Virus record (IMG/VR): IMGVR_UViG_3300014962_000041
Coordinates: 1 to 29,551 of that record
DNA length: 29,551 nucleotides
Source: a virus
Direction: 5' to 3' (one strand)
In this document: piece by piece, positions 10,193 to 27,255 of the stretch
Position numbering within the stretch: position 1 is the first letter of the stretch
How the letters are laid out: each line of letters opens with the position of its first letter
The notes under the pieces: generated by a model
Databases searched by the model: none
The model's input: the letters and a program-made list of their open reading frames with translations, nothing else
What the model was told of the DNA's origin: nothing
Made by a program: the position numbers and the translations under genes

Positions 10193-10628
10193 TGTACTCC
10201 GGAAACAAGGATTGGTTGAAGCTCATATAGTCGATAAAACGCTCGGTATAATACTTGGCAATCGTGCGTTCCTTCTCAACTAAATAATCAATTTCGACTT
10301 TCTCTGCGTTAACAGAATTTTCGCTTGTATGCTTAAATACACCTCCGTTGGCTACCGTGTAAGCAGCAAACGGCAAGTATTCAACTAACGCCCAATGGAT
10401 AAGCATCGGTTGCAAGTAGTCGGTTACAAGGGATAGGTAATTACCCGCAAGCGTGTTAGCAATAATATCCGAGGAAATTTTGTCGTACAACTTGGTTCCC
10501 GTGTAATTCTGAACGTGAATCTCTTGAGCAATCTTAATAAATTGGATAAACTTATCCGTATCGACGTTGCCGGAAATTACCGTGTTGCGTACAATATCCT
10601 CACGCTTGATAAAAAGAGCCGTAGCCAT
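10128..10628 (-). CDS. Head-tail connector (head completion) protein, 166 aa
   Basis: The protein is mostly helical with FIKIAQEIHVQNYTGTKLYD, LQPMLIHWALVEYLPFAAYT and a C-terminal SFNQSLFPEY segment, the pattern of small adaptor proteins (DUF6712-like) encoded next to portals in Bacteroidota phages. It should bind the portal ring and form the first neck ring. The start shares one base with the portal stop (TAATG). Confidence 0.7.
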   Translation of the reverse strand: MATALFIKREDIVRNTVISGNVDTDKFIQFIKIAQEIHVQNYTGTKLYDKISSDIIANTLAGNYLSLVTDYLQPMLIHWALVEYLPFAAYTVANGGVFKHTSENSVNAEKVEIDYLVEKERTIAKYYTERFIDYMSFNQSLFPEYNENVNEDIYPDRDSRPASWVL

Positions 10629-12391
10629 TATTTACGAGGTTTTAAGAATCCTTCATTCGGCATATCAACTGGACGCTTTGCAACCTTTGGGTTATTCACT
10701 TCCGGCTTAACGCCTGCCTTACGAGCTTGGTTAACTGAAATATCGGCATTCGGGTTTTTAGCATCTGGAGTTACGCCTTCGGCTTTTGCTAAATACGTCT
10801 TACGCATCCAGAAGTGGTGGCAACGTGCGCCTCCTTTGTAGAGCCATATATCGTATGTTGCTGCGCCACGAGGGCCGAATCCAGCGTTAACCTCCTGCTT
10901 GCGCATACGCATAATATCCTCCTTGCGGTACACCTTGTTTGCGTTTACCATAAGTTTGCAAAACTCACGGCTATTGGCTTTGGTTGTACCCGGTGCATAC
11001 GAATAACGAATCTTGTACTTGCGTCCGTCTTTTGTTACTCCGTCTTGCTCGGACTTTGCATTGGGAAACGCATCTCCGGTCTTGGCGAACTTTAAGATTG
11101 AATCTAAATACTCCTCTTGCTCGTAGTCAACGGGACGCTCGTCAACAAGCTCCCATTCGTCCAAGTCCTCGTCTTCGCCAAATTCATTCAACGCCTCGAA
11201 CATTCCATTAAGCAACTCGTCGCTCACGTCGGCGGAGAATCCGAATCCGCTGCTTTCAACTCCGGTGGATTCCTCCACCACGTCAGAAGGGGCAACTACG
11301 TCCTCCTTAAATTCCAACGGCTGCAAGGTCTTAAAATAGACGTTTAAGGACGCTCCGTTAAAAGATAGCACTTCCTCTACCGCATCGAGTAAAACTTCTT
11401 GTAATGGGCGGATAACGATGTTATCGAACAGAATAGAAGCGGTCTTTAATTCGTCTGCGTTATTACCAAGTCCGGTTTGGTCTTTAATACCTAAAAGCAT
11501 CGGGCTTGTTACTCGGTGGCCTACCATAATCTTCTTGGTGCATTCCTCCGATAAGAATTGGTACTGCTCGCTTGCGTCTGATAGTTGTACGGGTTCGATT
11601 GTTGCTGCGAGTTCCTTGTTATCGTTAAATGCAAGGATAAACCTACCAGCATTCGAGCTACCAGAAAACTTATCCGCAATCCGTGCCTCGATTAAGGTCT
11701 GCTCGTCTTCGGTAGGTGTGCCGTTGTTAAAGTTAATCAGCATCGACGGCGCTAAGCCGTTCTTGATATTGCTGATATGGTAGTTGGCTACTTCCTCCTC
11801 CAATTCGGCATACGGAAGTGAACCTTGGTAGTCCGTTGGGGCGTAGTAATAGTATCCTGCTTTGTAGGGCTTAATATACAGAATCTCGATACCCGCTTTG
11901 CTGGTTCCATAAGCATCAATGCGTACGGGAACCTCTTTGCGCTGTGCTACCCTATCCCAGCTCTTTGCGTAGTAGTAAGCAGGAATAAATCCCTCCTCAT
12001 TTGCCTTTTCAGCACGCAAGGTTTCAACCGGGATATGTTCAACCTTTACAATCTTGGAATGGTCTTGGTTGTAGATTACTTGAATAGCAGCATTGCCCAT
12101 CATTTTGAAGTCGGCAACAACTTTTTTCATACAGTCCTTCGTAAACAAGGACATAAGCATTGCGTACTCGTCGGGCTTTTGTGCTGCGTCTGTTGCTGCA
12201 AGACCCTTGCCGTAAATCATATCGATAACGCCATTAATAATAGCATTATTGGTAGGACTTCCGTTGTATCGGTCGATTAGGTATTGGAAGTAATTGTTAT
12301 CGCTTCCGTACTCAATCCATTGCTTTCCGCTAACCTCTTTAACCTCCGGCTTAACGTAGGAGTTCAAGGCCATAAATCTCACATTGCTCAT
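10628..12391 (-). CDS. Portal protein with C-terminal extension, 587 aa
   Basis: Residues 1-360 look like a phage portal: RYNGSPTNNAIINGVIDMIYG near the N terminus, MGNAAIQVIYNQDHSKIVKV, VANYHISNIKNGL, then TSPMLLGIKDQTGLGNNADE (about 310-330), a strong portal signature for the crown/clip region. After an acidic linker (about 361-435), residues about 440-560 form a second domain (REFCKLMVNANKVYRKEDI, YDIWLYKGGARCHHFWMRK) followed by a basic, Pro-rich tail. The portal forms the dodecameric DNA gate at one vertex. The ATG overlaps the upstream stop by four bases. Confidence 0.85.
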   Translation of the reverse strand: MSNVRFMALNSYVKPEVKEVSGKQWIEYGSDNNYFQYLIDRYNGSPTNNAIINGVIDMIYGKGLAATDAAQKPDEYAMLMSLFTKDCMKKVVADFKMMGNAAIQVIYNQDHSKIVKVEHIPVETLRAEKANEEGFIPAYYYAKSWDRVAQRKEVPVRIDAYGTSKAGIEILYIKPYKAGYYYYAPTDYQGSLPYAELEEEVANYHISNIKNGLAPSMLINFNNGTPTEDEQTLIEARIADKFSGSSNAGRFILAFNDNKELAATIEPVQLSDASEQYQFLSEECTKKIMVGHRVTSPMLLGIKDQTGLGNNADELKTASILFDNIVIRPLQEVLLDAVEEVLSFNGASLNVYFKTLQPLEFKEDVVAPSDVVEESTGVESSGFGFSADVSDELLNGMFEALNEFGEDEDLDEWELVDERPVDYEQEEYLDSILKFAKTGDAFPNAKSEQDGVTKDGRKYKIRYSYAPGTTKANSREFCKLMVNANKVYRKEDIMRMRKQEVNAGFGPRGAATYDIWLYKGGARCHHFWMRKTYLAKAEGVTPDAKNPNADISVNQARKAGVKPEVNNPKVAKRPVDMPNEGFLKPRK

Positions 12392-12723
12392 ATAATAACG
12401 AACGTATTATCTCCTGCGGTTTCTTGGTCGTACACCCCGGCGTTCACGGTGAACTTCTCGAAATTAGTTTGGTCGGTGCAGAATACCCGACCACGATAAA
12501 TCAAATTTAAGCCACTAAACACCTCCAACAAATAAAAGTTTTGCGCTACCAAAGTCCAAGCAGCATTTAAGGTCATATAGCCATTTGCGCTTGTTGGTGC
12601 GATTGTTTGCGTTTGGGTAGTATTGGTGGATTCGTTCGTTAGCCGTGCTGATACAGAAGCAGGAAACGAGCGAGGGATGATTACTAAATTCTGCGCTGAT
12701 GCGCTTGTAGTTAAAATGTTCAT
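12388..12723 (-). CDS. Small virion-region beta-rich protein, 111 aa
   Basis: The ATG at 12723 starts MNILTTSASAQNLVIIPRSF; the protein is Thr/Ser-rich with alternating strands (YLLEVFSGLNLIYRGRVFCT). It looks like a small beta-sandwich and may be a head decoration or neck part. Longer starts upstream use non-ATG codons and cross the terminator at 12761-12785. It begins a new unit below that terminator and is joined to the portal by ATGA. Confidence 0.65.
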   Translation of the reverse strand: MNILTTSASAQNLVIIPRSFPASVSARLTNESTNTTQTQTIAPTSANGYMTLNAAWTLVAQNFYLLEVFSGLNLIYRGRVFCTDQTNFEKFTVNAGVYDQETAGDNTFVII

Positions 12724-12760
12724 CTTACAAATAACTCGTTTGTTGCTTTTTGTTTTAATT

Positions 12761-12785
12761 AAAAAAGCCACCCCGAAGGATGGCT
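12761..12785 (-). terminator. Rho-independent terminator with UUCG loop
   Basis: On the minus strand AGCCATCC-TTCG-GGGTGGCT (12785-12766) is followed by a run of Ts. One T-G wobble lies in the stem. It ends the transcript of the tail-tube and coiled-coil genes, so the portal needs read-through or its own start. Confidence 0.9.
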
Positions 12786-12808
12786 CTCTTAAATTGCGAT
12801 TAAAACAA

Positions 12809-13162
12809 TTAAAACTTGGTAATGCCAATTGCGGCTTGCGAGTAACGCTGCGACTTGCTTGCGCCTGATTCGGATTCTGTTTTCAGTTTTTGAATCGTTG
12901 GCTTCAAGTTGTTTTGAGGGAACCCACGAGATTCTGCATCTTTAATGAATTGCTCCATCTCTGCAACTTTTTTAGAAGCTTGGATGTATGCTGATTGTGC
13001 CTCGTCAAACGCTTCCGAAGCTCGCATTGCTTGACCCGTTGCTTGACGAAAAGCTTGGTCTGCCTTATCTAATAAAGCACGAGTGTCCTCGATAAAACCA
13101 AGTTCTACTTTGATTGGCTCTGCCTTGGCGGCAAGGATGTTATAGATAGATTGCTTACTCAT
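12809..13162 (-). CDS. Helical coiled-coil protein after tail tube, 117 aa
   Basis: The protein starts MSKQSIYNILAAKAEPIKVE and is almost fully helical (LLDKADQAFRQATGQAMRAS, EAQSAYIQASKKVAEMEQFI), with a Ser/Gly/Lys-rich C terminus (ESGASKSQRYSQAA). It begins two bases after the tail tube gene and ends at a terminator. A tail assembly or minor head protein is possible. No family is recognised. Confidence 0.7.
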   Translation of the reverse strand: MSKQSIYNILAAKAEPIKVELGFIEDTRALLDKADQAFRQATGQAMRASEAFDEAQSAYIQASKKVAEMEQFIKDAESRGFPQNNLKPTIQKLKTESESGASKSQRYSQAAIGITKF

Positions 13163-13164
13163 AA

Positions 13165-13698
13165 TCAGAAGTCGGAACCAGTTACAATAGTCGAAATTCC
13201 AGCAGCAGATAAAGTGCCGTCCAAGAAGTTAGCAGGAACCTGCTCTTGTCCGTTCAGCGTCAAGGTGTAACCGGAAAGGTCGCCCATAGCAGCACCTGTT
13301 ACAATCGTTCCTCCGGTTACCTCGCAACCGTGCTCCAAACCAGCAACAAAGTAATTACCATTATAGTCCTCGACGATAACAATCGGACGGCCATAAGCCA
13401 TCAATTTGATTTCCTTGTTGGACTGCTTGCTCAATTTGTGCAAGGTCAAGTTTAAGGTTTGGTCGAAGAACGTAGTTCCGTTTTCACGGCTGGAATTTAC
13501 GGTCTGCTCGAAAGAGGAGTTACCCTTCAATTCGTATTTATACGCAGTCAAACCACTACCCAACGTATCGATAGCGTCTGTGTTTGTTGCGTCATAAGTA
13601 ACCGTCAAGTTCTGATAGTTCAGAAAGTAAACTGCCGTGATTCCACCTACAACGTCCTTGCAAGGTTCGATACGGCCAAGGGATAAAGCACAAGCCAT
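13165..13698 (-). CDS. Probable major tail tube protein, 177 aa
   Basis: The protein starts MACALSLGRIEPCKDVVGGI, has the strands FEQTVNSSRENGTTFFDQTL and IKLMAYGRPIVIVEDYNGNY, and AGLEHGCEVTGGTIVTGAAM. This pattern recurs, as I recall it, as an abundant structural protein of flavobacterial phages and fits a tail tube subunit. It lies between terminators after the capsid and coiled-coil genes, suggesting its own expression level. A head decoration protein is the alternative. Confidence 0.65.
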   Translation of the reverse strand: MACALSLGRIEPCKDVVGGITAVYFLNYQNLTVTYDATNTDAIDTLGSGLTAYKYELKGNSSFEQTVNSSRENGTTFFDQTLNLTLHKLSKQSNKEIKLMAYGRPIVIVEDYNGNYFVAGLEHGCEVTGGTIVTGAAMGDLSGYTLTLNGQEQVPANFLDGTLSAAGISTIVTGSDF

Positions 13699-13718
13699 TT
13701 TATTTGTATTTATATGGT

Positions 13719-13762
13719 TAAAAAAGAAAGGGAGGACGAGGGTTAGTTACCCAAGCCCTCCC
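13719..13762 (-). terminator. Bulged-stem terminator after major capsid gene
   Basis: On the minus strand GGGAGG pairs with CCTCCC (13762-13757 and 13735-13730), with an inner stem GGGT/ACCC and an unpaired internal part, followed by TTTCTTTTTT. It would limit read-through from the capsid gene to the tail tube gene. Confidence 0.75.
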
Positions 13763-13781
13763 AATCAGGATTCTAATTTAA

Positions 13782-14708
13782 TTAGGCGTAGTAAACGATG
13801 TCGCTACCGATTCCGTACTGGATACCTGCGCTCATACGCATAATCAAGCGGAAGTTTTGCGAGCCGTCGATGTCAGCCATATCAATCAAGCGAACCTCGT
13901 TCTTGTCGCTCAACAAGCCAGTTCCGAAGAACAAGTTGGACTTCTGGGCAGCAACGATTTTGTTAGAAGGCAAACCTTCTGCCAAAGCAACCTTGATACC
14001 GTCGAAGTACAAGTCCTGCGAACCGTACCACATAGTGCCTTTGTTATCAACACCGTTAGCACCTACTCCGGAAGCGGCGAAGCCACCCAAAGCACGTACA
14101 TAGGCCTTTGCTACGTTCTGTGGAACGAAGATAGTCAAATCTTGCTTACCGTACAGAGCAGAAGGGATAGCGTCAACTACCTTGCCCAATTCGGTGATTA
14201 CGTTAGAAGCAGTAACGGTAGTTCCGGTTACGTCTACAACGTCAGCGTCAGCAGCGAACAATACGGTGAATCCGTCGAACTGGCCAGCAGAAGCGTTAAC
14301 ACCAGCCCAGATGTTTTGCTCGATACGAGCGGCAACCTTCTCAGCAGCGTAAGCTACGATAAAGTCGGTGAAAGAGGCAGGTACATTCTTGAAAGCGGAG
14401 TAACCCATCTCAACGGCTTGCCAAGTTTGTTCAAAGTCCTTTTTGCACATTTGCAAGTTAACTTGGAACTCCTCGGTAGTCAAAACACGCTCGGTCAAGG
14501 TAACGGTAGATGTAGGGTCGAAGTCGCAAGTAGCATTCTTCAAGATATCATCCGTACCAACCTTTTGGATAACGGATTTGTAGTATACGTTGGGCATTAC
14601 CTCGATGAGGCCTTTGTCCAAGGTAGGAGCGCTCAAAAGAGCAGCGGCAACGTATTTGCCAGCAAATTCGCCAGCATACGTAGTAGTGATTGAAGTGGTC
14701 GTAGCCAT
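13782..14708 (-). CDS. Major capsid protein, 308 aa
   Basis: The protein starts MATTTSITTTYAGEFAGKYV and has AALLSAPTLDKGLIEVMPNV, KSVIQKVGTDDILKNATCDF, a long spine helix (TDFIVAYAAEKVAARIEQNI), and KQDLTIFVPQNVAKAYVRAL. Order and length fit an HK97-fold capsid subunit. It lies after the scaffold gene and before a terminator, as expected for a high-yield protein. The virion position is clear from neighbours; which HK97 subfamily it belongs to is not. Confidence 0.85.
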   Translation of the reverse strand: MATTTSITTTYAGEFAGKYVAAALLSAPTLDKGLIEVMPNVYYKSVIQKVGTDDILKNATCDFDPTSTVTLTERVLTTEEFQVNLQMCKKDFEQTWQAVEMGYSAFKNVPASFTDFIVAYAAEKVAARIEQNIWAGVNASAGQFDGFTVLFAADADVVDVTGTTVTASNVITELGKVVDAIPSALYGKQDLTIFVPQNVAKAYVRALGGFAASGVGANGVDNKGTMWYGSQDLYFDGIKVALAEGLPSNKIVAAQKSNLFFGTGLLSDKNEVRLIDMADIDGSQNFRLIMRMSAGIQYGIGSDIVYYA

Positions 14709-14724
14709 TTTTTATTTGTTGATT

Positions 14725-15282
14725 TTATTTGTTAAGACGTGCAAGAACTCGGTCGATAGCAGTTTCCGGTGCATTCTGTGCGAGGTTAACTCGTGCAGGT
14801 GCGGGGGCTGCTTCTGGGTTGTGGCGGATTGGGGTAGCGGCGGGCATATCGCTTGACATCTCCTGCTTCTTTTTGTACGCTCCCATTTCCTCCTTCATTG
14901 CGGACAATTCAGCCCGCATCTCTTCAAGGATAGGCATTACTACCTCCTTGATTTTCTCCTCCATTGTTGGCTCGACGGCTGCTTCAACCTCAATTTCAAC
15001 AGACGGAGCTTCTTCTTCTGCCTCGGCTGTTGCTTCTTTGATTTCACCGATAACACCTTCTTCGGCTACAACCAAGATGCGGCCATCCTCCATTTCGTAC
15101 TCACCGACTGGGACTGCAATACGGTCTTCCTCTGATACGATGAAAATGGGTTGGCCTGCCTCAAATGATTCAGCTTCCAAGACAGTGCCGTTATCGAGCT
15201 TGGCTTGCGCCAACTCAACCTCGGTGGTCTCAACTGCGGACAGCTCGGCAAAGAATTTTTGGAAAATTTCTGTTGCTTTCAT
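14725..15282 (-). CDS. Scaffolding protein, 185 aa
   Basis: Residues 80-145 are extremely rich in Glu and Ala (EIKEATAEAEEEAPSVEIEV, then KIKEVVMPILEEMRAELSAM), a long acidic helix typical of scaffolds that guide capsid assembly and are removed later. The first 80 residues form a small beta-rich domain (VLEAESFEAGQPIFIV), and the C terminus is Pro/Ala-rich followed by AIDRVLARLNK, which may bind the capsid subunit. It directly precedes the capsid gene in the operon. Confidence 0.85.
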   Translation of the reverse strand: MKATEIFQKFFAELSAVETTEVELAQAKLDNGTVLEAESFEAGQPIFIVSEEDRIAVPVGEYEMEDGRILVVAEEGVIGEIKEATAEAEEEAPSVEIEVEAAVEPTMEEKIKEVVMPILEEMRAELSAMKEEMGAYKKKQEMSSDMPAATPIRHNPEAAPAPARVNLAQNAPETAIDRVLARLNK

Positions 15283-15319
15283 ACTCGAAATAATTGATTA
15301 GTTATTGATTGTTACATTT

Positions 15320-15460
15320 TTATACCGGAACCTTCACGGTAACGCCTACGCCTTGTGCTTGCAACGAACCATCGCAGCATTTTGAGGAGTAGGTGTTATC
15401 CTTGCAAAGGCATCCACGCTTGCCCCCTTTTGGGGAGGAACGACTTGGGGTCTTTTTCAT
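15320..15460 (-). CDS. Cys-rich small protein, 46 aa
   Basis: The ATG at 15460 starts MKKTPSRSSPKGGKRGCLCK, followed by DNTYSSKCCDGSLQAQGVGV. Four cysteines lie in C-x-C and CC pairs at about 17, 19, 28 and 29, fit for a zinc or disulfide knot. A basic N terminus precedes it. I recall this motif (KRGCLC, CC, G-QxQG) in Bacteroidota phages near head genes. The ATG overlaps the upstream protease stop by four bases. It could be a minor virion or assembly factor; function is unknown. Confidence 0.75.
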   Translation of the reverse strand: MKKTPSRSSPKGGKRGCLCKDNTYSSKCCDGSLQAQGVGVTVKVPV

Positions 15461-16392
15461 AGTTTACCTAATTCTTTGAGTTTAGATTCTGCCCAACGCT
15501 TGGCGGCAAGTCCGCCCCATAGCAAGTAGGAAATAGTACCGCACGCCTGCGTATCGTTCTCATCGTAGTACGTTTCCGCACGGGACAAGTAAGAATACAT
15601 ACGGGTAATGGTCTCTACGCTGATAGGTTTGCCGTCGGCAAGTTGTTGTGCTCGAATCTTGCCTACTGCCGTAGCGCATTTGTTACCGCCTTTCTCGTTT
15701 AAATCGATTCCACGCTTGGCATTGTTGCGTACCGCTTCTGGATAGTCGGTGTACGATTCCATCTCGATTCGCTTCTTGCTCTTTAAGCGGCCGTCCTTTT
15801 TAATCTTGGCGATAATGTTAGAAAGCATAAACTCCGCTTCCTCCTCCTCGATGCGTTCAAGGTGGGATTCCATTTGCATCTTGTCAACGAAGTACCCCTC
15901 GATTGAAAAGCCCTTAACACGCCCGGTCTTAACGTAATTGTTCCAAATGTCTTCGTTGTTGACTTTCATTGATACCATCCACGTACCTTCCGGTAATTCC
16001 ATTCCGTAGATAGCCGTCTTGTCTTTTTGTGGGTCTTCGACAATCCAAGATTCGACTACCGACAAACCGCTTAACTCGGCGGCGTGTTCAAGGGTGGTGT
16101 TTCCCTGATACCCACGCATTAAAAACAACTCCGATGCCTTGCGTACCGTTTCTTTTGAGAAGTACACATAAAACTCCTCACCACCTTGGTTACGGTAGAT
16201 TGTTTTGTTTGGGATAAGGGCTGCGCCCATTAAGATACGCTTCTCTTCGTCCTGCGCTTTGAACTCTACCTCGTATTCTTTTGCAAGGGTGATAAAGTTC
16301 TCCTCAATCGCTGGATGTTCAACGATAGATATTGCGTTAATGCCATTTAGTCCTTCGGTTTCTTCAAGGACAAGTTCAATTACTTTTTTCAT
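15457..16392 (-). CDS. XkdF-like prohead protease with C-terminal fused domain, 311 aa
   Basis: The first about 170 residues match the XkdF-like phage serine protease layout: LNGINAISIVEHPAIEENF, then TLEHAAE (His103) with SVVESWIVED, and KGFSIEGYF with Ser163 as likely nucleophile. The enzyme should cut scaffold and capsid precursors during head maturation. Residues about 217-311 form a separate helical domain (KCATAVGKIRAQQLADGKPI, then TQACGTISYLLWGGLAAKRW) that, as I recall it, recurs in Bacteroidota phage head proteins. Together with scaffold and capsid genes downstream it forms the head assembly cluster. Confidence 0.8.
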   Translation of the reverse strand: MKKVIELVLEETEGLNGINAISIVEHPAIEENFITLAKEYEVEFKAQDEEKRILMGAALIPNKTIYRNQGGEEFYVYFSKETVRKASELFLMRGYQGNTTLEHAAELSGLSVVESWIVEDPQKDKTAIYGMELPEGTWMVSMKVNNEDIWNNYVKTGRVKGFSIEGYFVDKMQMESHLERIEEEEAEFMLSNIIAKIKKDGRLKSKKRIEMESYTDYPEAVRNNAKRGIDLNEKGGNKCATAVGKIRAQQLADGKPISVETITRMYSYLSRAETYYDENDTQACGTISYLLWGGLAAKRWAESKLKELGKL

Positions 16393-17961
16393 TTATCCGA
16401 ATGTTGCTGTTCTTGCTCGTCTACGTGCTAATTGTTGTGCGTTAGTAACCTCACCCGCTACAACGTATGCTTGGATTGGTTGTTGGTTGCGCTCGTTAAC
16501 CGATTGTGCTAATTGATTAATTCCAGAACGCCCAACGATATTAAATTGTGGGGTCATCTGCGATTCAGCAGGCGCACCGAATCCTCCACCTCCGGAATCA
16601 ATGTTTGTATCTGGGGATTCAAATTGTGTTCTTGCGATTGTTGCTACTTGCGCCCCGGCAAATGCTGCGGCAAGTCCCGCTTGTACATATGGGTAACCGG
16701 GGAAGACGGCAGTAAACGGTGAGGCTTGTGCGGTCTTGTATGCGTTTTGTACCGCCTCCACTCCGGATACCACAGCTGATGCAAGAGAAAGTTTCTTTTG
16801 AAATTCAAATTGGCGTTTCTTTGAAGCCTCGTCCTCTCCTGCAAATGCGGCGGATAACGCACTTATTGCAGCGATTCCGTCCTTCGCCATTTGAAACTTT
16901 GCGGCAGTAACCTCTTGGTCAAGTTCCTTACTATCCCGTGCATATTGGGAGTCTAATTCACCCTTTTGTTTTATTAATTCAGAATACTCACCAAAAGCTT
17001 CTTGTGCTGCAACAGTTCCTTTGAAAGTATTGTCTAACCGTTTTTTTGCTATTTCAATCTCTTGATTTAATAAACTTTCATTTGCCCTGTACTCGGCATC
17101 TAATTGTGCTCTGCGAGTTCTGTAAAGACCGATTTGAGCCCTACCGTTTTCATAAACTACCTCGCCATTCTTTTGTAACAATAGGTTGTAGTCCTGCAAC
17201 TCACGATTAAGGGACATTTGATTCATAAGGAACTCCGAGCGCTGCCCTGCAACACGTTCCTCAATATCTACCAATTCGGTGCGGGCTTGGATTAAAGCAA
17301 CCTCGTTTTCAATGCTTGGTATTTTAGCAAATTGCGCTTGGGCTGCTGCGACTACTTGCTCAACAAGCTCCTTTTCCTTTTGTAATTGTTCTGTTAAAAT
17401 CTCATTCAAATCCGTATTTGCCTCGATTCTTGAATTGATGCTATTTAACTCGTTATCTCGTTCTTGGCGTGCTTTTTCCGCAAGTAACTGATAAGATAAT
17501 TGAACTTCCGTGCGCTTTGCTGATGCTAATGCACCTTGCTTTTCCAATTCCACAATTTCACGAGAATCGGAAATAACGCTACCAAGATTCAAAGTAGTAC
17601 CCTTTGTAATAGAATCGAAGATTCGGGATACGCTTAATTGAATCGCACCAAGAGCCGTATTAAATACATCCACAACGGCTTGGTTAGCCGTGAACGCTTC
17701 CTTGGCAGTATCCATAGCAACGGATACCAACGCAAGACCTTTTGCGCTATTGGCGAGTTCCTTAAAAGAGTTGTTGGTTTTCTCGGTTTCCTTGCGAACA
17801 CCCTCAACGCTCTGTTCGGTTTTATCGAACGCTTTTTTGCTTTCTACACCTACTCTTTTGATAGAGTTATTTAACTCCTCAACGCTTTTGGTGAGTTTAT
17901 CAAGGGTCGAATCTAATTCAGTTCCGTCCCCTTGGATTTTTATAGTTTCGACAACCGCCAT
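16393..17961 (-). CDS. Short tail tape measure protein, 522 aa
   Basis: The N-terminal 70 residues are coiled coil (LTKSVEELNNSIKRVGVESK), then a hydrophobic region (ALVSVAMDTAKEAFTANQAV), long helices with many Gln, Glu and Ala (about 130-370) and a C-terminal membrane-prone segment (ASAVVSGVEAVQNAY, PYVQAGLAAAFAGAQVATIA). This is the tape measure layout. With the usual 0.15 nm per residue, 522 residues would set a tail near 78 nm. An internal core protein of a podovirus is the alternative, but the tail tube, chaperone and completion genes argue against it. Confidence 0.75.
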   Translation of the reverse strand: MAVVETIKIQGDGTELDSTLDKLTKSVEELNNSIKRVGVESKKAFDKTEQSVEGVRKETEKTNNSFKELANSAKGLALVSVAMDTAKEAFTANQAVVDVFNTALGAIQLSVSRIFDSITKGTTLNLGSVISDSREIVELEKQGALASAKRTEVQLSYQLLAEKARQERDNELNSINSRIEANTDLNEILTEQLQKEKELVEQVVAAAQAQFAKIPSIENEVALIQARTELVDIEERVAGQRSEFLMNQMSLNRELQDYNLLLQKNGEVVYENGRAQIGLYRTRRAQLDAEYRANESLLNQEIEIAKKRLDNTFKGTVAAQEAFGEYSELIKQKGELDSQYARDSKELDQEVTAAKFQMAKDGIAAISALSAAFAGEDEASKKRQFEFQKKLSLASAVVSGVEAVQNAYKTAQASPFTAVFPGYPYVQAGLAAAFAGAQVATIARTQFESPDTNIDSGGGGFGAPAESQMTPQFNIVGRSGINQLAQSVNERNQQPIQAYVVAGEVTNAQQLARRRARTATFG

Positions 17962-20116: not shown

Positions 20117-21363
20117 CGAATGTTGTTCCTAATGTTCCAAGCGATTTCAAAGGTCAAGGTGTAATTTATCATTTTGGCGTTTACCTCCTTAAAATACTCA
20201 ACACCTCCGTCGGTTGGGTTGGCGGTAAACTCCTGCCCATCGTACAACAACGATACTTTCTCGCTCATTAAAAGCTCACGAATAACATCGTCGTAATTCT
20301 CGTCTACCCATCCGGTGTTTACGGTTATCGTTTCTCGGCTGTTGACATCAAAGTTACGATACTGCAACTGCTGGGTTACGTCGTAAGGACGTGGTAACTG
20401 CGGCATATAACTTTCCCGTGTGAAGTTGCCGCTCCGGGTTGATACCTTAAAGCAAGTCAGGTAGTCGCTAACTCCATAGCGGTTGATAAACGTAACCCGT
20501 ACCGGAGTGTACTTTGGTTCGCAAACCAACTCGTAATTGTAGTCGGTAGCGTTCTCCTCGTAACCCAGTTCGGCAAGCGCCTCACGCAAGCAAGCAAACC
20601 CTTCGCACGTTCCTCCGTCGGCTTCTACTCGTGCTTTGTAGTTGACTGCTGCGCTATCGCTAATCAAAGAAATAGTATAGTTCTCAATCGGTTCAACACC
20701 CAAAAAAGAATCAATGCTGTTTACACCTGCTGGAATGTAAATAATCTTTTGGCTTGATTCGGTGCTTGTATTGGCAAAGCCAAGCTCGTCGGATAGCACG
20801 TAAAAATAGTCTGTACCATTCACGTTGTACAGAACGCCATTAAGGTCGGTATTGGTATCGTACAAAGCAGGCAAGGACTGCTCATAACCTTCGACTACTT
20901 GAATAGTGCGGTTGGTGATTAAGCCAGCACCCGCAACGATGCCTCCGGATTGCGTTGTAAACGGCAACCATCCGTCCGTACATAGGAACGATTGATTGCT
21001 TACAATTAGACCCGTTGCAGGCGTTCCCGCATCCACGTAGTCGGCCGATATGGTAAACTTGCACCATACGTCCTCGGTTGTTGCTGTTTCCCAGTCGCTA
21101 ATCGCATCGTTCTTTAATACGGTTGTAATTTTCTCACGTATTAAGTCGCTGATTTCAAAGACAATAGGTTCGTCGTTAATCGAGTTTTTGGTTAACGTGT
21201 ACTCCGCCGTTGGGCTGCTTGCGCTGCTACCTTGGAAAATACGCAAGGTAAGTAGCGCATTAACAAGGCCGTCGTTAACGGCTGTGCCTTTGGTTAGCGT
21301 GATAAATATCGGAGACCTTGTAAACTGCAACGAGGTCGGATAGGTGGCTATTGGTAGTCCCAT
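20113..21363 (-). CDS. Tail protein, 416 aa
   Basis: The protein starts MGLPIATYPTSLQFTRSPIF and has IVFEISDLIREKITTVLKND, VYCxP-like CEPKYTPVRVTFINRYGV (about 290-307) and TRSGNFTRESYMPQLPRPYD. It is beta-rich throughout, with no membrane segment. I recall the ECxxKYTP...FINRYGV pattern in structural proteins of flavobacterial phages. Tail location is inferred from the tail completion genes on one side and the 674-aa tail protein on the other. Start overlaps the gp10-like stop by one base. Confidence 0.65.
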   Translation of the reverse strand: MGLPIATYPTSLQFTRSPIFITLTKGTAVNDGLVNALLTLRIFQGSSASSPTAEYTLTKNSINDEPIVFEISDLIREKITTVLKNDAISDWETATTEDVWCKFTISADYVDAGTPATGLIVSNQSFLCTDGWLPFTTQSGGIVAGAGLITNRTIQVVEGYEQSLPALYDTNTDLNGVLYNVNGTDYFYVLSDELGFANTSTESSQKIIYIPAGVNSIDSFLGVEPIENYTISLISDSAAVNYKARVEADGGTCEGFACLREALAELGYEENATDYNYELVCEPKYTPVRVTFINRYGVSDYLTCFKVSTRSGNFTRESYMPQLPRPYDVTQQLQYRNFDVNSRETITVNTGWVDENYDDVIRELLMSEKVSLLYDGQEFTANPTDGGVEYFKEVNAKMINYTLTFEIAWNIRNNIR

Positions 21364-21869
21364 TATTTACGTGTAAATGCTTGGAAGTCATCCGGCGTAA
21401 GTTCGAACGCTTGTACGATTTCCGGTGGTAGTTTCTTGAAGTTTACTTTGAATGGTGCGCTAAAAAAGTAACTCGGCTTAATGCCGTTGTTGTACACCGA
21501 CTTTGCTATTGCCCATTGTAAGCTCTTGCGTGGTATAAATCTGCCGTTCTTATCTCGTACACCTTGCAGCCCCTTACGCACTACCCAGTTAGCAAATGCC
21601 TTGGGTGGTGGCATCTTATTGGTGTATTTATATGGCGTGTTGAACTTACGCTTTACACCGCTTACGCCTTTATCTTGGTATTCTCCGTAGTCCTCCATTT
21701 TGAAGGATAGAGAAAATGAATTAGCACCAACCGACAAGTCGTAGTCAAGAGAATTATACAGCTCCTTTGTGCTGTTCTTTCTTTTCTTGGTGAGATTCTG
21801 CTTCGCCTGCTGAATTACACGCTTTGCAAACTTCGTTAATGCGGCTTGTACGAATTCTTTGCGGCTCAT
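21363..21869 (-). CDS. HK97 gp10-like tail completion protein, 168 aa
   Basis: The N terminus is basic and helical (AALTKFAKRVIQQAKQNLTK), then ELYNSLDYDLSVGANSFSLS and DYGEYQDKGVSGVKRKF, followed by NGRFIPRKSLQWAIAKSVYN. This order fits the HK97 gp10-like neck/tail terminator family. Basic residues suggest contact with DNA or the negatively charged portal neck. It directly follows the 155-aa gene with no gap. Confidence 0.7.
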   Translation of the reverse strand: MSRKEFVQAALTKFAKRVIQQAKQNLTKKRKNSTKELYNSLDYDLSVGANSFSLSFKMEDYGEYQDKGVSGVKRKFNTPYKYTNKMPPPKAFANWVVRKGLQGVRDKNGRFIPRKSLQWAIAKSVYNNGIKPSYFFSAPFKVNFKKLPPEIVQAFELTPDDFQAFTRK

Positions 21870-22337
21870 TTAGCAAATAGATATTTCCGTATTCGGTACA
21901 ATCAAATCAAAGGTCAGGTTCCAGCCAGTGAGCAGATTCTCAAACCGCTCGGTAAACGGCTCGCAGGTAACGTCCCCTTCGATTTCGTACTTCTCTGTGT
22001 ACAACGTACCACGGCGTAATTGGGACTGCAATCCGTTTAAGATAGCCAAGGTTGTGTTTAGAATATCCTGCTGGTTATCCACGCCAAAGAACGGCTCGTT
22101 CTGGTCTCGTATATCCTGCTTTGTTTCATCCACAATATCCATACACAACACCGATACGTTGAATCTTATTACGTGGTCGGCGAATGTTGCTTGGTTAACC
22201 ATAATATGTGCAAGCGGGAATATCGTTTGCTTGTTAAGGTCAACGTCGAAAATATCCCCAAACGTAACAACCTTCACCAATGGATGCGAGGAAAGGTAGT
22301 CGTTTATCTTTTCGGTGGCTAAATAAAAACTTCTCAT
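21870..22337 (-). CDS. Tail completion/terminator-like protein, 155 aa
   Basis: The protein starts MRSFYLATEKINDYLSSHPL, has TFGDIFDVDLNKQTIFPLAH and later FNVSVLCMDIVDETKQDIRD, a strand-helix pattern common to tail terminator proteins. Cys at 85, about 134 and at the end. The ATG overlaps the TGA of the frameshifted chaperone product (22337-22334), not the stop of the zero-frame product at 22405, so its translation is probably coupled to the frameshift. Confidence 0.65.
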   Translation of the reverse strand: MRSFYLATEKINDYLSSHPLVKVVTFGDIFDVDLNKQTIFPLAHIMVNQATFADHVIRFNVSVLCMDIVDETKQDIRDQNEPFFGVDNQQDILNTTLAILNGLQSQLRRGTLYTEKYEIEGDVTCEPFTERFENLLTGWNLTFDLIVPNTEISIC

Positions 22338-23058
22338 TTTTTAATCATTGCTATTTCAATATCGTTTTTCTCTTTCTCAAAAGTTAGATAAGTCAATGCC
22401 TGATTTATTGGAAGTTGAGTAACTTCTCCAAATTTGAGGACATCTCCCTGAGCAAGCGCATAGATTGATTGATACCATCCCCATCGTTGTCCGAACTGGG
22501 CTTCTCGTGTGTATGGATTTTCATCTCTCGTTCCAAAGAGCGAAGGGTATGAGCTGCTAATACGTTCCCTAAACGATAAAAAAAAACCAGCGCACCAAGC
22601 ACTACCGAAGCGGGCATCTGCTTCATTAGTTCGTCCCGCTCGTCTGTTGCGGTGTACTTTTCAATATCGTAGCGTTCTCCTTTCTCTTTAACCACGGGTC
22701 GGTACAGTACCGCCATTGCACGGTGCATAGTAGCCCAATCGGATAGGTACGAATCAAGGTCTACAAACTCACCCAATGAAATTTCGTTGAGTGCTGGGAT
22801 AAATCCGTATTTAACCTCGTTGAGTTCAAAGAATTTCGTTAATCCAGGCTTCTCGGACAGCGTTTTGGTTAGTCGTTCCAATACGCTTACCGCATCCACC
22901 AATCGGACATTGGGCAGTTCTGAAAATGGAACCCCGCAGAAGATTTCAAGCATCTTCATTTGCTTGAACTCACCCTCACCTTCAATACGAGCGAACCGCT
23001 GGTATTGTTCGAGCGTGATTTCGTCTAACGAGGTTGGTACTACTAATTTCAGTTCCAT
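22334..23058 (-). CDS. Tail assembly chaperone-like protein, -1 frameshift product, 241 aa
   Basis: After Phe160 the -1 frame continues for 81 residues with no stop (LSFRERI to AMIKK) and ends in a TGA at 22336-22334 that overlaps the ATG of the next gene. The tail has a highly natural pattern: QFGQRWGWYQSIYALAQGDV, FGEVTQLPINQALTYLTFEK. That zero-frame bases could by chance encode this is unlikely. The long form would be made when ribosomes slip on U UUU UUU (22585-22579). If the genome has 10 rather than nine Ts, the same protein would be made without slipping. Confidence 0.75.
22405..23058 (-). CDS. Tail assembly chaperone-like protein, zero-frame product, 217 aa
   Basis: The zero-frame protein starts MELKLVVPTSLDEITLEQYQ, is helical, and ends NLEKLLNFQ. 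Residues 158-161 (Val-Phe-Phe-Tyr) are encoded by the nine-T tract. Up to residue 160 it is shared with the frameshifted product, and from 161 its tail (RLGNVLAAHTLRSLERE and so on) is unique. This is like the gpG / gpGT pair of phage lambda, where a short and a long form help the tape measure to assemble. The place after terminase is unusual for such a gene, so the identity is inferred mainly from the frameshift design. Confidence 0.7.
   Translation of the reverse strand: MELKLVVPTSLDEITLEQYQRFARIEGEGEFKQMKMLEIFCGVPFSELPNVRLVDAVSVLERLTKTLSEKPGLTKFFELNEVKYGFIPALNEISLGEFVDLDSYLSDWATMHRAMAVLYRPVVKEKGERYDIEKYTATDERDELMKQMPASVVLGALVFFYRLGNVLAAHTLRSLEREMKIHTHEKPSSDNDGDGINQSMRLLREMSSNLEKLLNFQ
22579..22585 (-). 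promoter_or_regulatory. Ribosomal -1 slippery site, U UUU UUU
   Basis: The minus strand reads CTG GTT TTT TTT TAT in the zero frame, with nine Ts at 22586-22578. The heptamer U UUU UUU lets P- and A-site tRNAs for Phe re-pair in the -1 frame. I did not find a clear strong stem or an SD-like stimulator downstream by eye. Confidence 0.7.
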
Positions 23059-23070
23059 ACAATAAATAAC

Positions 23071-24228
23071 TCAACGGATAGAATACCTACCGTAGTTTGG
23101 TTTAGAAAGTTTGTTATAGACGGCGTAACGTGCCGCATCGAGTGCGTGGTTCATTACGTCTATCGGCTTATTAAGCAGGTTGCCGTTCTTGTCCTCCGTC
23201 CACTTATAGTTTTGCAATTCTTTAATTAGATTGCTGCTCCGTGAGGTTGCAAACAACTTATGGCGTTTGAGAATATCAATACCTGCATTAATCGAATCTT
23301 GCCCCTTGGCGGTTGGCTTTACGTTCCAGCCGAATCGGTGCAGTTCCTCGATTGATTTTGGTTCGGCACTATCCGCAAAGATTTCGTCCCTTCGGTCAAG
23401 GCCAAGTGATTGCAAGTGGTTATGAATATCCCGGTTGGTCATCCCCGTTCGGTAGAGCAGTTCGTCCAAGTAAAGGTTATCGCCGTGCTGGTAGATTGCC
23501 ACAATAGCGGACGGGTCATTTGTAAAACCAAAGTCAAGTCCATAGGAAAGTAATTTTGCTTCTTGTGGGATTTCGGACGTCCCAAATTGAAAGATTGTTG
23601 CTCGGCTCATACCACGCTCACCCAAGCCGTAGATACGCCAATAGTCCTCGTCGGTTTCTTTTAAGCGTTCGATTTCCTGCTTAATCTGCTCGTCAAGGAA
23701 CGGGTTATCCCGGTACGTGGTTTGATAAAAGTCGCAGTCCTCACGGGGTATTACTTTGTCGTAAATCCAATGGAAAGATTCGGACGGGTTGTAGTCCAAA
23801 ATAATACGCCCGTCGGTACGGAATATAAGCTGCTGCCAGTCCTCGTAAAACAATTCATTTGCCTCGTTTATGTACAGCAGGTTTCGTTTGCGTCCTCGAA
23901 TCTTTTGCGGCTGGTCAAGGGAGATAAACTCAACAAGGTTTCCGTTCAAGTGGTACTCGTGGCTGGACTTGTTATGATACTCCTCCCGGTATAAATCGTG
24001 GTTGCGTAGAATATCAAAAAAGTCCCGCATTACGGAAGCCCGCAGGGATGGGAACGACTTACGGCAAATGGTTATGGTCTTGGCGGTGTTGCGTTCGGTA
24101 TAATAAAAGATAAGCCAGAGCAGGATGTTGTAAGTTTTCCCACTCCGTGTACCGCCTTGCTCAACGATAATGCGCTTATCGCTTTTGATTAGGTGGTTAA
24201 ATACCTTATTCGTCTGAATCTTCCCCAA
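23071..24228 (-). CDS. terL: Terminase large subunit, 385 aa
   Basis: This motor packs DNA into the prohead and cuts it. Walker A is GGTRSGKT (25-32), Walker B is LLYINEAN (117-124) with catalytic Glu122. The nuclease domain carries GLDFGFTNDP (Asp232), FADSAEP (Asp286) and HALDAARYA (Asp364), the RNase H-like metal ligands. The pattern matches PBSX/phage terminases of the 380-450 aa class. It overlaps the small subunit by 23 nt. Confidence 0.95.
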   Translation of the reverse strand: MGKIQTNKVFNHLIKSDKRIIVEQGGTRSGKTYNILLWLIFYYTERNTAKTITICRKSFPSLRASVMRDFFDILRNHDLYREEYHNKSSHEYHLNGNLVEFISLDQPQKIRGRKRNLLYINEANELFYEDWQQLIFRTDGRIILDYNPSESFHWIYDKVIPREDCDFYQTTYRDNPFLDEQIKQEIERLKETDEDYWRIYGLGERGMSRATIFQFGTSEIPQEAKLLSYGLDFGFTNDPSAIVAIYQHGDNLYLDELLYRTGMTNRDIHNHLQSLGLDRRDEIFADSAEPKSIEELHRFGWNVKPTAKGQDSINAGIDILKRHKLFATSRSSNLIKELQNYKWTEDKNGNLLNKPIDVMNHALDAARYAVYNKLSKPNYGRYSIR

Positions 24229-24553
24229 GAACTTCTATTTGAAACATCTTGCCCGTTGATACGTCCAATTCCTGCCGTTCAACGTAGCCACGCTTCTTGC
24301 CTTTTGTTTTTAGGAAAAAGATTGTTGCGGTTGAGTTACCATCCTTGATTTGTTTATGCAGTTGGCTTTCTGCAAAGTCAAGAGCAACGTCTGATAGTGA
24401 TTCAACTGCTGCTTTGTAGTCAGGGTCGGTATCCATCCAAAGGTAATGCGTAGTCCTTCCAATGCCTACAACTTTGCAAGCGGCAGTAACAACTCCGAGG
24501 GATTTTTCCAACGCATCGAGCATTGCCTTTTTATGTTGTTCAGTTTTGTCCAT
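24206..24553 (-). CDS. terS: Terminase small subunit, 115 aa
   Basis: The ATG at 24553 starts MDKTEQHKKAMLDALEKSLG; residues about 15-45 (VVTAACKVVGIGRTTHYLWM) form a helix-turn-helix that recognises the packaging site. A helix DYKAAVESLSDVALDFAESQ may form the oligomer core, and the end (MFQIEVLGEDSDE) is acidic, as in the tails that contact the large subunit. I chose this ATG; the frame upstream up to 24622 runs across the plus-strand promoter and the tRNA-like element and starts only from a non-ATG codon. It precedes the large subunit with a 23-nt overlap. Confidence 0.85.
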   Translation of the reverse strand: MDKTEQHKKAMLDALEKSLGVVTAACKVVGIGRTTHYLWMDTDPDYKAAVESLSDVALDFAESQLHKQIKDGNSTATIFFLKTKGKKRGYVERQELDVSTGKMFQIEVLGEDSDE

Positions 24554-24576
24554 ACCATATCTTTGTTTTATATTTG
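24545..24576 (+). promoter_or_regulatory. Plus-strand Bacteroidota-type promoter for the tRNA-like RNA
   Basis: On the plus strand TTTG (24545-24548), a 20-bp spacer and TATATTTG (24569-24576) fit the -33/-7 consensus with near-ideal spacing. A second candidate box, TATCTTTG, lies at 24558-24565. Transcription would begin just before the tRNA-like 5' end at 24585. The promoter overlaps the terS start region on the other strand. Confidence 0.65.
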
Positions 24577-24584
24577 TTTCACCT

Positions 24585-24655
24585 GCGAGGGAAGTGTAAT
24601 GGTTGCACGCTTGGTGTTCCAATCAAGAAGTGGCGTTCGAATCGACCTCCTCGCT
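24585..24655 (+). tRNA. tRNA-like element (Gly-UCC-like), degenerate
   Basis: This plus-strand element folds as a cloverleaf. The acceptor GCGAGGG pairs with TCCTCGC (24648-24654), the D arm is GTGT-AATGGTT-GCAC, the anticodon stem is CTTGG/TCAAG and the T loop TTCGAAT is canonical. The oddities are an eight-base anticodon loop (TGTTCCAA, with TCC as anticodon if T24618 is position 33) and a T stem with two mismatches (TGGCG/CGACC). The variable region is three bases. No CCA is encoded. It is flanked by its own promoter and a terminator. It may be a decayed tRNA or a structural RNA with another job. Confidence 0.6.
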
Positions 24656-25246
24656 CAAAGTAGCCCCGCTTGTCGGGGTTTCTTTTTTGGGATAAGGTTT
24701 ACTTAACGATTGACACATAGGAATTAAACTCTTGTCAAGTGGATAAATATACTTATGTTTCCCTGCTTTTTTTCGCTTTGGTAACTTCTTAAAATCAACA
24801 CCCCAATTGTATCTTCCTCTATCGTGCTTCCATATTCCGTTTAGTAGATATTCAGTTCCGCTACTTTCTATATTTTCAATATAATACCAGTTTGTCGCTT
24901 GATAAATTGTACCATAATGACTTTGACCTTTATCAGCATAACTAAATAACAGCTTTACAGTAGGGCAATTTTTCCTTATTAACCTTATCGCAGACGCTAA
25001 TACCTTACTTGTTGAAGATTGTTTCCCATTAAGTGCCATTCTATTTAATTCAAGATATTGCCCGTTTCTTAAATTAAACTTTGTAGGCATATTTACAGAT
25101 GCGCCACCTCCAAATAAAACAACACCGCACCAGACGTCATTCTCAAAAACAGAATATCCAATAGAATAAGTTGGAACTGCCTTTGCGTAATGAAAGTTTA
25201 AGCAAGCGTATTTTACTGCCTTATTTGATGCAATCTCTAATTTCAT
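24623..25246 (-). CDS. Mom-like DNA modification protein, 207 aa
   Basis: The protein matches the layout of phage Mu Mom-family enzymes, GNAT-like proteins that modify adenines and protect phage DNA from host restriction. The signature stretch is CLNFHYAKAVPTYSIGYSVF, FGGGASVN, QYLELNRMAL, KLLFSYADKGQSHYGTIYQA and WYYIE, followed by YLLNGIWKHDRGRYN. The last about 20 residues (ETPTSGATLSEEVDSNATS) are encoded by the reverse of the plus-strand terminator and tRNA-like element, so are probably not conserved. The gene is more A+T rich than its neighbours, suggesting separate acquisition. Start overlaps the ParB-like gene by four bases. Confidence 0.75.
   Translation of the reverse strand: MKLEIASNKAVKYACLNFHYAKAVPTYSIGYSVFENDVWCGVVLFGGGASVNMPTKFNLRNGQYLELNRMALNGKQSSTSKVLASAIRLIRKNCPTVKLLFSYADKGQSHYGTIYQATNWYYIENIESSGTEYLLNGIWKHDRGRYNWGVDFKKLPKRKKAGKHKYIYPLDKSLIPMCQSLSKPYPKKETPTSGATLSEEVDSNATS
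24662..24688 (+). terminator. Plus-strand rho-independent terminator of the tRNA-like unit
   Basis: On the plus strand CCCCG-CTTGT-CGGGG (24664-24678) is followed by TTTCTTTTTT. The stem is fully paired and G+C rich. Read on the minus strand it lacks a T tract, so it works for plus transcription. It lies within the C-terminal coding end of the Mom-like gene. Confidence 0.85.
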
Positions 25247-25782
25247 ATTCCGCCTGCACTAACTGAAAAATAAGCCCCTTGATACTTTCTATCTAAAAGC
25301 TCTTGTATATCAATCTCTGCCTTCTGTAATTGCTCTGGACTATCAAAGGTTATTTTCATAGTCGCTGGCTTTCCCTTCTCCTCTCCAATTAACTCATCGT
25401 GAGACGGCTCTTCTAAAAAAACAGGTAAGTCAAGACCCCATTCTTGCAGAAGCGTCTCATCCCATTCATTCGCTAACAAGTCCCAGTCCCATTCACCGAA
25501 CCCTACATTGTCTTTTATTATGAACTCCGCCTGCTGCTCCTCCGTTAGATTATCGGCAATAACAATCGGCACTTCTTTAAGCCCTGCGGCCTTGCACGCC
25601 TTTAAGCGCATATTGCCACCCAACACCACCATATTTGCATCCACAACGATAGGACGCAAGTCAAGCATTTGTGGGAACTCTTGGATTGATTTTACGAGCT
25701 TCTTAAACTTATCGTCCTTGATAATTCGTGGGTTGCTCGGATTCGGTAGTACCGTTTCAATTTTTACTCGTGAGGCGTTCAT
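25243..25782 (-). CDS. ParB-like nuclease-domain protein, 179 aa
   Basis: The first 75 residues are a ParB/sulfiredoxin-type domain: NPSNPRIIKDDKFKKLVKSI (box I-like) and VLGGNMRLKACKAAGL (box II, GGNMR at 55-59). Then EEQQAEFIIKDNVGFGEWDW, a segment common in phage and methyltransferase-linked ParB proteins. Here it sits next to a Mom-like gene, a pairing I recall from other phages. It may bind DNA or CTP and help modification or packaging. It overlaps the glycosyltransferase gene by 26 nt. It is not a partition ParB since there is no ParA. Confidence 0.8.
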   Translation of the reverse strand: MNASRVKIETVLPNPSNPRIIKDDKFKKLVKSIQEFPQMLDLRPIVVDANMVVLGGNMRLKACKAAGLKEVPIVIADNLTEEQQAEFIIKDNVGFGEWDWDLLANEWDETLLQEWGLDLPVFLEEPSHDELIGEEKGKPATMKITFDSPEQLQKAEIDIQELLDRKYQGAYFSVSAGGI

Positions 25783-26728
25783 AGCGAATATCGTTAAAGT
25801 CGTGGATGTTAAAGTTGGTGGTCATCTCCTCGTGTAAAGTTAGGGCAATATCCCCGGCCTTGTTTGGATTGTCGTGCAGGTATTTAATTGCCTTATTCCA
25901 ATCGCCTTTATGCTTTACTGCGATGCAGTTGTTTTTATTTAGGTGTTGTGAGTATGGTGCTACATCACTTACAATTAACGCACAACCAGCAAACCCTGCT
26001 TCTACCATTTTTAGGTTTGATTTGCAACGATTGAACTCACTTGGTAGTAATGGAGCCAATGCAACGTCAAATGCTTGGTATAACTTTCCGTATTCCTCTG
26101 GGGATTGTGTTTGTAGTGCGAATCTTGCTTTTGCAGCTTGTGGGTATCCGCCAAGGTCAGCAACGTATGATTGGTAAGGGGATAGGTCGATTTTGTTTTC
26201 TACAAGGTCTGGAAGGTGGGATATTCCCGCCACGTAACCAAAACGCACTTCGTCGGATTCTTGGCGGGTTATTTGCCATTGCGGGTCGGCAGGGTCTAAT
26301 CCGTTTGGAATGATATGTACATTGCGGTTTACCTTCTTGATTTTATCGGCAAGGTACTTTTGGGTAGTCCAGACCTCGTCTGCAAAGTACATTGAGTTTA
26401 CAATCCGTCCGGATAGGTTTGCTTTATCGTATGTTGTTTTGCTGGGGTGGTCAAGAGCCAAGTGCCACCAATCGTCATTGTCGATTATTACTTTTTTGCC
26501 CGTTGCTTTGCAAATAGCAAAGAAGTTAGCAAAGGATTCACCGGAGAACGGCAAGGCACGAGAAAAGATAACGTGGGTAACGTCCTCCCAATCGGCTTCG
26601 GGTATTGGCTGCTTGTAGTTGAGTATCTGAAAATCCAAAAGCCCTTTCTCCTTTAACAGAGTGAAGGGCTTGTAAATCCGGTGGTACACCACGCCGGATT
26701 GTTGGTCTCCAAGGCAAAGGACTTTCAT
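25757..26728 (-). CDS. GT-B type glycosyltransferase-like protein, 323 aa
   Basis: Two Rossmann-like halves can be seen: MKVLCLGDQQSGVVYHRIYK (1-20), IIDNDDWW (81-88), NVHIIPNGLDP (136-146), then VRFGYVAGIS and ALAPLLPSEFNRCKSNLKMV followed by EAGFAGCALIVSDVAPY (about 243-259), which is like the donor-binding E-x7-E region of GT4 enzymes. It should move a sugar from a nucleotide donor to an unknown acceptor, either modified phage DNA or a host surface glycan. It is joined to the GT-A gene by ATGA. Confidence 0.75.
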   Translation of the reverse strand: MKVLCLGDQQSGVVYHRIYKPFTLLKEKGLLDFQILNYKQPIPEADWEDVTHVIFSRALPFSGESFANFFAICKATGKKVIIDNDDWWHLALDHPSKTTYDKANLSGRIVNSMYFADEVWTTQKYLADKIKKVNRNVHIIPNGLDPADPQWQITRQESDEVRFGYVAGISHLPDLVENKIDLSPYQSYVADLGGYPQAAKARFALQTQSPEEYGKLYQAFDVALAPLLPSEFNRCKSNLKMVEAGFAGCALIVSDVAPYSQHLNKNNCIAVKHKGDWNKAIKYLHDNPNKAGDIALTLHEEMTTNFNIHDFNDIRYERLTSKN

Positions 26729-27255
26729 TTCAAATAGTTATAGTAACAAAGATAGGCATCGAGCGTCTTGATATTCCACTTTGCCATTTGTTGAGCGAAT
26801 AACCCATCTGCTTCGTATTCAGTTCCAAACCTTACATCTCCGATTGCATCGCAACGTACCATAAACGAAGCGGTATCTATTGTGCCTACTCTTGGTTCCT
26901 TTGTCGGATGCAATCTTGGTTGGCCATTGCGGAATACCTGCCCCCACGTAACAAACGGATAAGATTCGTTTTTAACGGCTTCATACCAATCTGGGTGGAT
27001 TATGTTATCATCGTCGAGAAAGTATATGTAGTCGCCTCTTTTGGCTCTTAATGCCAATATAAACTCCATACCTATATTTCGGAGTGGGTGCCCCCAGTAA
27101 CCGGAGACGTTTGGGCGTAGGTAGGTAATTCCGTTTGGGAACTCGCCTTTTGCTTTATCGTCAACGACTACCGTCCAACTGCAATCTTCCGGAATGGTTG
27201 CTTTGATTGTTGACAAGTTCTCTGGGCGTGAGCAAGGTGTAATGATATGAATCAT
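26725..27255 (-). CDS. GT-A type (family 2-like) glycosyltransferase, 176 aa
   Basis: The protein starts MIHIITPCSRPENLSTIKAT, has the DxD metal site in IYFLDDDNIIHPDW (Asp81-Asp83), and GYWGHPLRNIGMEFILALRA. At 176 residues it is a minimal GT-A domain without membrane parts, so it acts in the cytoplasm. Two glycosyltransferases of different fold side by side suggest a two-step glycan or a sugar added to a base modified by another enzyme. The start overlaps the HNH gene by four bases. Confidence 0.8.
   Translation of the reverse strand: MIHIITPCSRPENLSTIKATIPEDCSWTVVVDDKAKGEFPNGITYLRPNVSGYWGHPLRNIGMEFILALRAKRGDYIYFLDDDNIIHPDWYEAVKNESYPFVTWGQVFRNGQPRLHPTKEPRVGTIDTASFMVRCDAIGDVRFGTEYEADGLFAQQMAKWNIKTLDAYLCYYNYLK

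Follow-up and report, generated by a model that had tools for sequence, protein, structure and literature searches.

Probable transcriptional slippage on a conserved run of nine Ts in a tail-chaperone-like gene of Bacteroidota phages

In phage lambda, a short tail protein, gpG, and a C-terminally extended form, gpGT, have their N domain in common and are encoded in the virion gene block, between the tail tube and the tape measure. The frame change in systems of this kind is ribosomal (-1, -2 or +1) and takes place on a heptamer that varies, and ribosomal frameshifting is presented as the normal device of tail chaperones (PMC5009743, which cites Xu, Hendrix and Duda, 2004). Another way of changing the frame is known from bacterial genes such as Shigella mxiE and spa13, Thermus dnaX and some IS elements. 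These carry a run of about nine As or Ts of conserved length, and the frame is set by realignment of the polymerase; in mxiE the run consists of Us and an added nucleotide is required for the long product. Bacterial RNA polymerase usually slips on runs of nine (PMC1088944; also PMC3711429, PMC5009743), and selection against slippage generally becomes apparent at nine nucleotides (Baranov, 2005, PMC1088944). Runs of nine A/T slip efficiently in vivo (PMC5009743), and where homologues keep a 9A/9T run at the same length, transcriptional slippage that serves a purpose is very likely (PMC1088944). No phage tail gene using transcriptional slippage was found in the literature searched, which was covered in part. 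Here we describe a gene that resembles lambda G/GT in its two predicted forms and virion gene block, and the bacterial slippage genes in its run; unlike the latter, it is a structural-block gene of phages and is spread over hundreds of lineages.

The window, i.e., the whole stretch of DNA that was analyzed, is a 29.6-kb virus record, and the gene lies on its minus strand. The zero-frame ORF at 22405..23058 codes for a putative short product of 217 aa (phrog_32199, E 1.1e-20), composed of an N domain (residues 1-160) and a zero-frame tail of 57 aa. Nine consecutive Ts (T9) are found at 22578..22586, with the codons GTT TTT TTT TAT starting from 22587, and they include an in-frame heptamer T_TTT_TTT (22579..22585), the alternative site for a ribosomal slip. 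The -1 frame is without a stop from 22660 down to a TGA at 22336-22334. Past the slip it would add 81 residues, LSFRERISSSYPSLFG...AMIKK, which together with the TGA occupy 22334..22579 and would form the C-terminal domain of a long product. In the sequence ATGA (22334..22337), this TGA overlaps the start codon of the gene that follows (ATG, 22337-22335), and the zero-frame stop leaves a gap of 67 nt before the same ATG. A previous account based on the letters of the window, here called the sequence-only reading, had described the coordinates, the run, the heptamer, the 81-aa tail, the overlap and the gap, and re-reading of the sequence found each of them correct.

Relatives of the gene are numerous. 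When IMG/VR was scanned, the zero-frame protein as the query gave 79 relatives with identities from 95% to 35%, and a tblastn search of phage records added Nonlabens phages P12024L and P12024S at 31% identity. Four alignment-based scans yielded at least 592, 587, 566 and 469 confirmed stretches, and three contigs from bacterial genomes also match, one of them from Flavobacterium sp. MFBS3-15. The family is very large, with several hundred members in IMG/VR at minimum, belongs to viruses of Bacteroidota bacteria and is unannotated as a frameshift gene. Among the matches listed, 347 distinct loci (duplicates removed, down to approximately 30% identity) have both the N domain and the tail. Several of the scans were queried with the tail only and therefore did not select for the T run or for the frame relation.

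In 345 of these 347 distinct loci among the matches listed, the tail is in the -1 frame; this shared layout and the absence of T runs of nine or more from the other genes surveyed (see below) rule out a chance overlap. Stops in the -1 region of the relatives were not found. The T tract, whose conservation that reading had suggested looking at, precedes the -1 tail as T9 in 317 loci, T10 in 27, T8 in one and T7 in none (n = 345). The length is thus 9 or 10 in 344 of 345, which is the pattern taken as a mark of transcriptional slippage in PMC1088944. The sole relative with a run of eight, L354 (GTT TTT TTT CAG), offers a natural test of the length requirement. A sequencing error is ruled out as well, since T9 is present in the isolates P12024L and P12024S, each independently sequenced, in one Flavobacterium genome contig and in hundreds of separate metagenomes.

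Two of the 347 loci are exceptions. One (L057) has an indel at another place. The other, L214 (478-1242), has T10 and a single frame of 254 aa that spans N domain and tail; it is the only relative in which 10 Ts make a plain gene, as the sequence-only reading had supposed such a run to do. This fusion may be natural or may come from an error in assembly. If L214 is real, the long form would be its default product. This locus is also what could be expected from replication slippage, i.e., phase variation, in which the run mutates between 9 and 10 Ts and the population holds both split and fused genes. The -1 relation is, however, kept in the other 345 loci, including the 27 with T10. Those T10 loci that were inspected have re-phased codons (GTT TTT TTT TTC or NNN TTT TTT TTT TAT), so that T10 does not act as a frame switch there, and we consider phase variation a very improbable explanation.

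Nonlabens phages P12024L and P12024S (Inhavirus) have direct homologues with both T9 and the -1 tail (phrog_32199, phrog_38404). Their annotation lists two unrelated hypothetical proteins (genes 40/41 and 38/39), leaving the frame change unannotated; the missed recoding is located in JQ823123.1 at 23946-24640 (L081:9001-9695) and in JQ823122.1. Taken at face value, such an annotation, as for genes 40 and 41 of P12024L, would mean two separate proteins, the -1 ORF being translated from an internal start of its own, and GenBank indeed lists a separate small ORF in both phages. Against this stand the conservation of the -1 frame, which begins right at the T run (L, F and R within six residues) and before most of the possible starts, the invariance of the run and the existence of natural fusions, and it is hard to give the two-protein explanation any real weight. 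The fusions are single-ORF viral proteins among the predicted structures of BFVD that match the N domain as well as the tail: A0A516L5A8 (260 aa), A0A516L611, A0A6J5SVK3 (241 aa), A0A6J5N0W0, A0A6J7XA66 and A0A6J7WDG4. Fused homologues had been suggested as a check by the sequence-only reading.

Both frames are conserved past the run. The residues of the -1 tail retained across 97 diverse members are F3, W33, G34, W35, Y36, G45 and L65, among which F3, W33 G34 W35 and L65 are nearly invariant. In the zero frame of these members, little or no variation is seen at L163 and L167, three and seven residues past the slip. Pairs whose N domains share 45-55% identity are 50-51% identical in the -1 tail and 45% identical in the first 15 zero-frame residues. 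In the later part of the zero-frame tail the identity of the same pairs is 38%, where the -1 frame has 50%. The long form is thus more strongly constrained, and the zero-frame form is constrained at its start at least. The conserved site, the -1 tail, the zero-frame continuation and the natural fusions support a programmed -1 frame change that would yield a short and a long protein. Farther away, Flavobacterium phage 6H has a distant homologue of the N domain (protein at 10352-10927; hhalign E 5.8e-5) with a -1-frame ORF next to it. In phage 6H (L337 10044-10927) the homologue ends with RCFFYSTR at a T6C run instead of T9, the -1 stop comes right after the run, and no similarity was found between the C-terminal ORF and the tail.

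The frame change could be made by the ribosome or by RNA polymerase. A -1 ribosomal slip requires the seven Ts of T_TTT_TTT, and this heptamer is in phase in all 345 loci with the -1 arrangement. The locus could then be a site of classical -1 programmed ribosomal frameshifting at U_UUU_UUU, with the extra Ts resulting from amino-acid constraints or boosting the slip, and ribosomal frameshifting in tailed phages can do without stimulators. A heptamer would nevertheless need no more than seven Ts, and among the 345 loci runs of seven are lacking and a run of eight occurs once. In addition, the Ts beyond the heptamer on its upstream (U) and downstream (D) sides compensate for each other. The (U,D) counts are (1,1) in 311 loci, (1,2) in 22, (2,1) in five, (2,0) in three, (0,2) in three and (1,0) in one. 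The usual site is NTT TTT TTT TNN, and the run length is kept across three codon phases: where the upstream Ts are absent (AAT, GGT or AGT TTT TTT) the following codon is TTG, and where the downstream T is absent (CTG or CTC) the preceding codon is TTT, as in GTC/GTG/TTG TTT TTT TTT CTN. When U and D were shuffled independently, with one count per cluster and type, 5.5 runs shorter than nine were expected and one was found (P<0.0001); this compensation signal rests on six cluster-level cases and is consequently strong, not broad, and the flanking Ts are partly set by amino-acid needs (a hydrophobic NTT before, an aromatic TNN after).

The last base of the heptamer also never varies, although U_UUU_UUC should work for the ribosome too. 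At the second Phe codon TTC never occurs (TTT in 255 of 255 cases), compared with 22-39% TTC at other conserved Phe positions; TTC at this position would preserve the zero-frame Phe, and also the -1-frame Leu where its codon is TTA or TTG. A stimulatory structure, usual but not required at ribosomal frameshift sites, was not detected: no RNA folding stimulator was seen on either side of the run, the mean z being near 0 (downstream side: 49 diverse loci). A +1-frame stop right after the run (170 of 180) was considered as a mark of transcriptional slippage and discounted, as the dual coding there (LG in the zero frame, FR in the -1 frame) nearly forces a stop.

Other genes of these phages avoid long runs. 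Synonymous codon shuffles of 604 genes of 97 phages lead one to expect approximately 9.6 T runs and 46.6 A runs of at least nine, whereas the genes themselves contain 0 and 11. Already at a length of eight or more, A and T runs are strongly depleted in the coding sequence (604 genes, 97 loci), which suggests that slippage is a real hazard in the hosts of these phages.

The run length, its independence of codon phase, the avoidance of TTC, the depletion of runs, the lack of a folding signal and the literature make RNA polymerase slippage probably the better explanation on sequence grounds, and we regard classical ribosomal frameshifting as about half as probable. The sequence-only reading had called the site a programmed -1 frameshift at the slippery heptamer U UUU UUU. 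Its frame change and its two forms are supported, and a slip of the ribosome at that heptamer is probably wrong, because a run of at least nine Ts is kept in any codon phase, pointing to the polymerase. Both mechanisms could act at one site, and sites with both types of slippage may exist (PMC5009743).

The gene sits between the large terminase gene, directly upstream (23071..24228, minus strand; phrog_2, E 7e-49), and a gene of 155 aa (21870..22337, minus strand; phrog_30964, E 5e-15), which appears tail-terminator-like by its position. The latter is followed by a gene of 168 aa (21363..21869, minus strand; phrog_29822, E 2e-39), putatively neck-like by position and sequence style. A homologue of the 155-aa gene is found downstream in 228 of 234 relatives and one of the 168-aa gene in 182 of 208. 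The tape-measure candidate (16393..17961, minus strand), a helical/coiled protein of 522 aa matching phrog_21537 "virion structural protein" (E 7e-11) and weakly DUF948, is approximately 4.4 kb downstream. The sequence-only reading had pointed out this place, directly after terminase and far from the tape measure, as unusual. In lambda, G/GT stands between the tail tube and the tape measure, and the classical chaperone position between the major tail protein and the tape measure is not the case here. The run differs too, being a T9 whose length is conserved where the lambda-type genes have a heptamer that varies, the N domain is longer (approximately 160 aa) and a family-level match is lacking.

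Several other features of the window were noted. Beside the terminase block there are a ParB-like protein (25243-25782) and two glycosyltransferase-like proteins (25757-26728 and 26725-27255), all named by eye. The gene order at 8036-17961 is unusual: the tape-measure candidate is followed by protease, scaffold-like and capsid-candidate genes, then by the tail-tube candidate (13165-13698) and, almost at the opposite end of the structural block, by the portal (10628-12391). A terminator-like hairpin, GCCATCC TTCG GGGTGGC TTTTTT (12761-12790), separates the 117-aa gene, which itself comes after the tail-tube candidate, from the gene that follows it. The overlap of the 117-aa and 146-aa genes (12809-12828) was considered as a second frameshift and rejected, the hairpin and an internal ATG at 12721 explaining it.

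No chaperone family match was obtained in Pfam, NCBIfam or PHROG; 17 of 97 members matched phrog_166 "tail protein" weakly (best E 1.8e-4). The N domain/short form and the tail were modelled separately with AF2. The short form has a pLDDT of 84, with a confident N domain (blocks mostly 87-94), and the tail is helical with a mean pLDDT of 90.6. In the PDB, Foldseek returned no match at E 0.001 or better for the short form and VIA-align gave only generic helical pairs; the outcome for the tail was alike. The closest named structural match is weak, a BFVD entry named tail assembly chaperone (ctCpR1; E 0.055, TM 0.38-0.41). The description as tail-chaperone-like made in the sequence-only reading may be right: the gene resembles lambda G/GT in genetic design and sits in a tail module, but chaperone sequence models gave no match, a single, weak structural match carries the chaperone name, and the place of the gene with respect to the tape-measure candidate is atypical. 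Since one gene within a tail-gene block appears to encode both a short and a long form, the role of a G/GT-like tail chaperone is the most likely one by analogy, and we hold it with considerable confidence. That the protein works like a tail chaperone is what we claim; membership in a chaperone family, plausible but unproven, is not.

We find it reasonably probable that this is one two-product gene of the G/GT design, whose long form would be made through polymerase slippage and whose tail-chaperone role is suggested by analogy. Most transcripts would be faithful (U9) and give the 217-aa short form, in which the final helix of the N domain would extend into the zero-frame tail. In part of the transcripts, RNA polymerase would realign on T9 and add one U (U10), and normal translation of these would give the 241-aa long form, i.e., the same N domain with a compact helical C-terminal domain bearing the WGW motif. 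If gpG/gpGT are a guide, the tape-measure protein may be coated by many copies of the short form, and the less numerous long form may recruit tail-tube subunits.

Gene callers either overlook the C-terminal domain of 81 aa or list it as a hypothetical protein in its own right, and the frameshift is unannotated even in cultured phages. For the family as a whole, the balance inclines slightly toward a very widespread family of Bacteroidota phages whose tail-chaperone pair is made through programmed slippage of the transcribing polymerase on a conserved T9, in place of ribosomal frameshifting. Known slippage sites give 25-50%, and if this reading is true, the ratio of long to short form could far exceed the 1:30 of lambda. 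Bacteroidota ribosomes seldom use Shine-Dalgarno signals, and the site could readily serve for testing slippage in these bacteria. Should the ratio be set by polymerase slippage, the phages would depend for tail assembly on the RNA polymerase of the host (or of a phage) and not on the ribosome.
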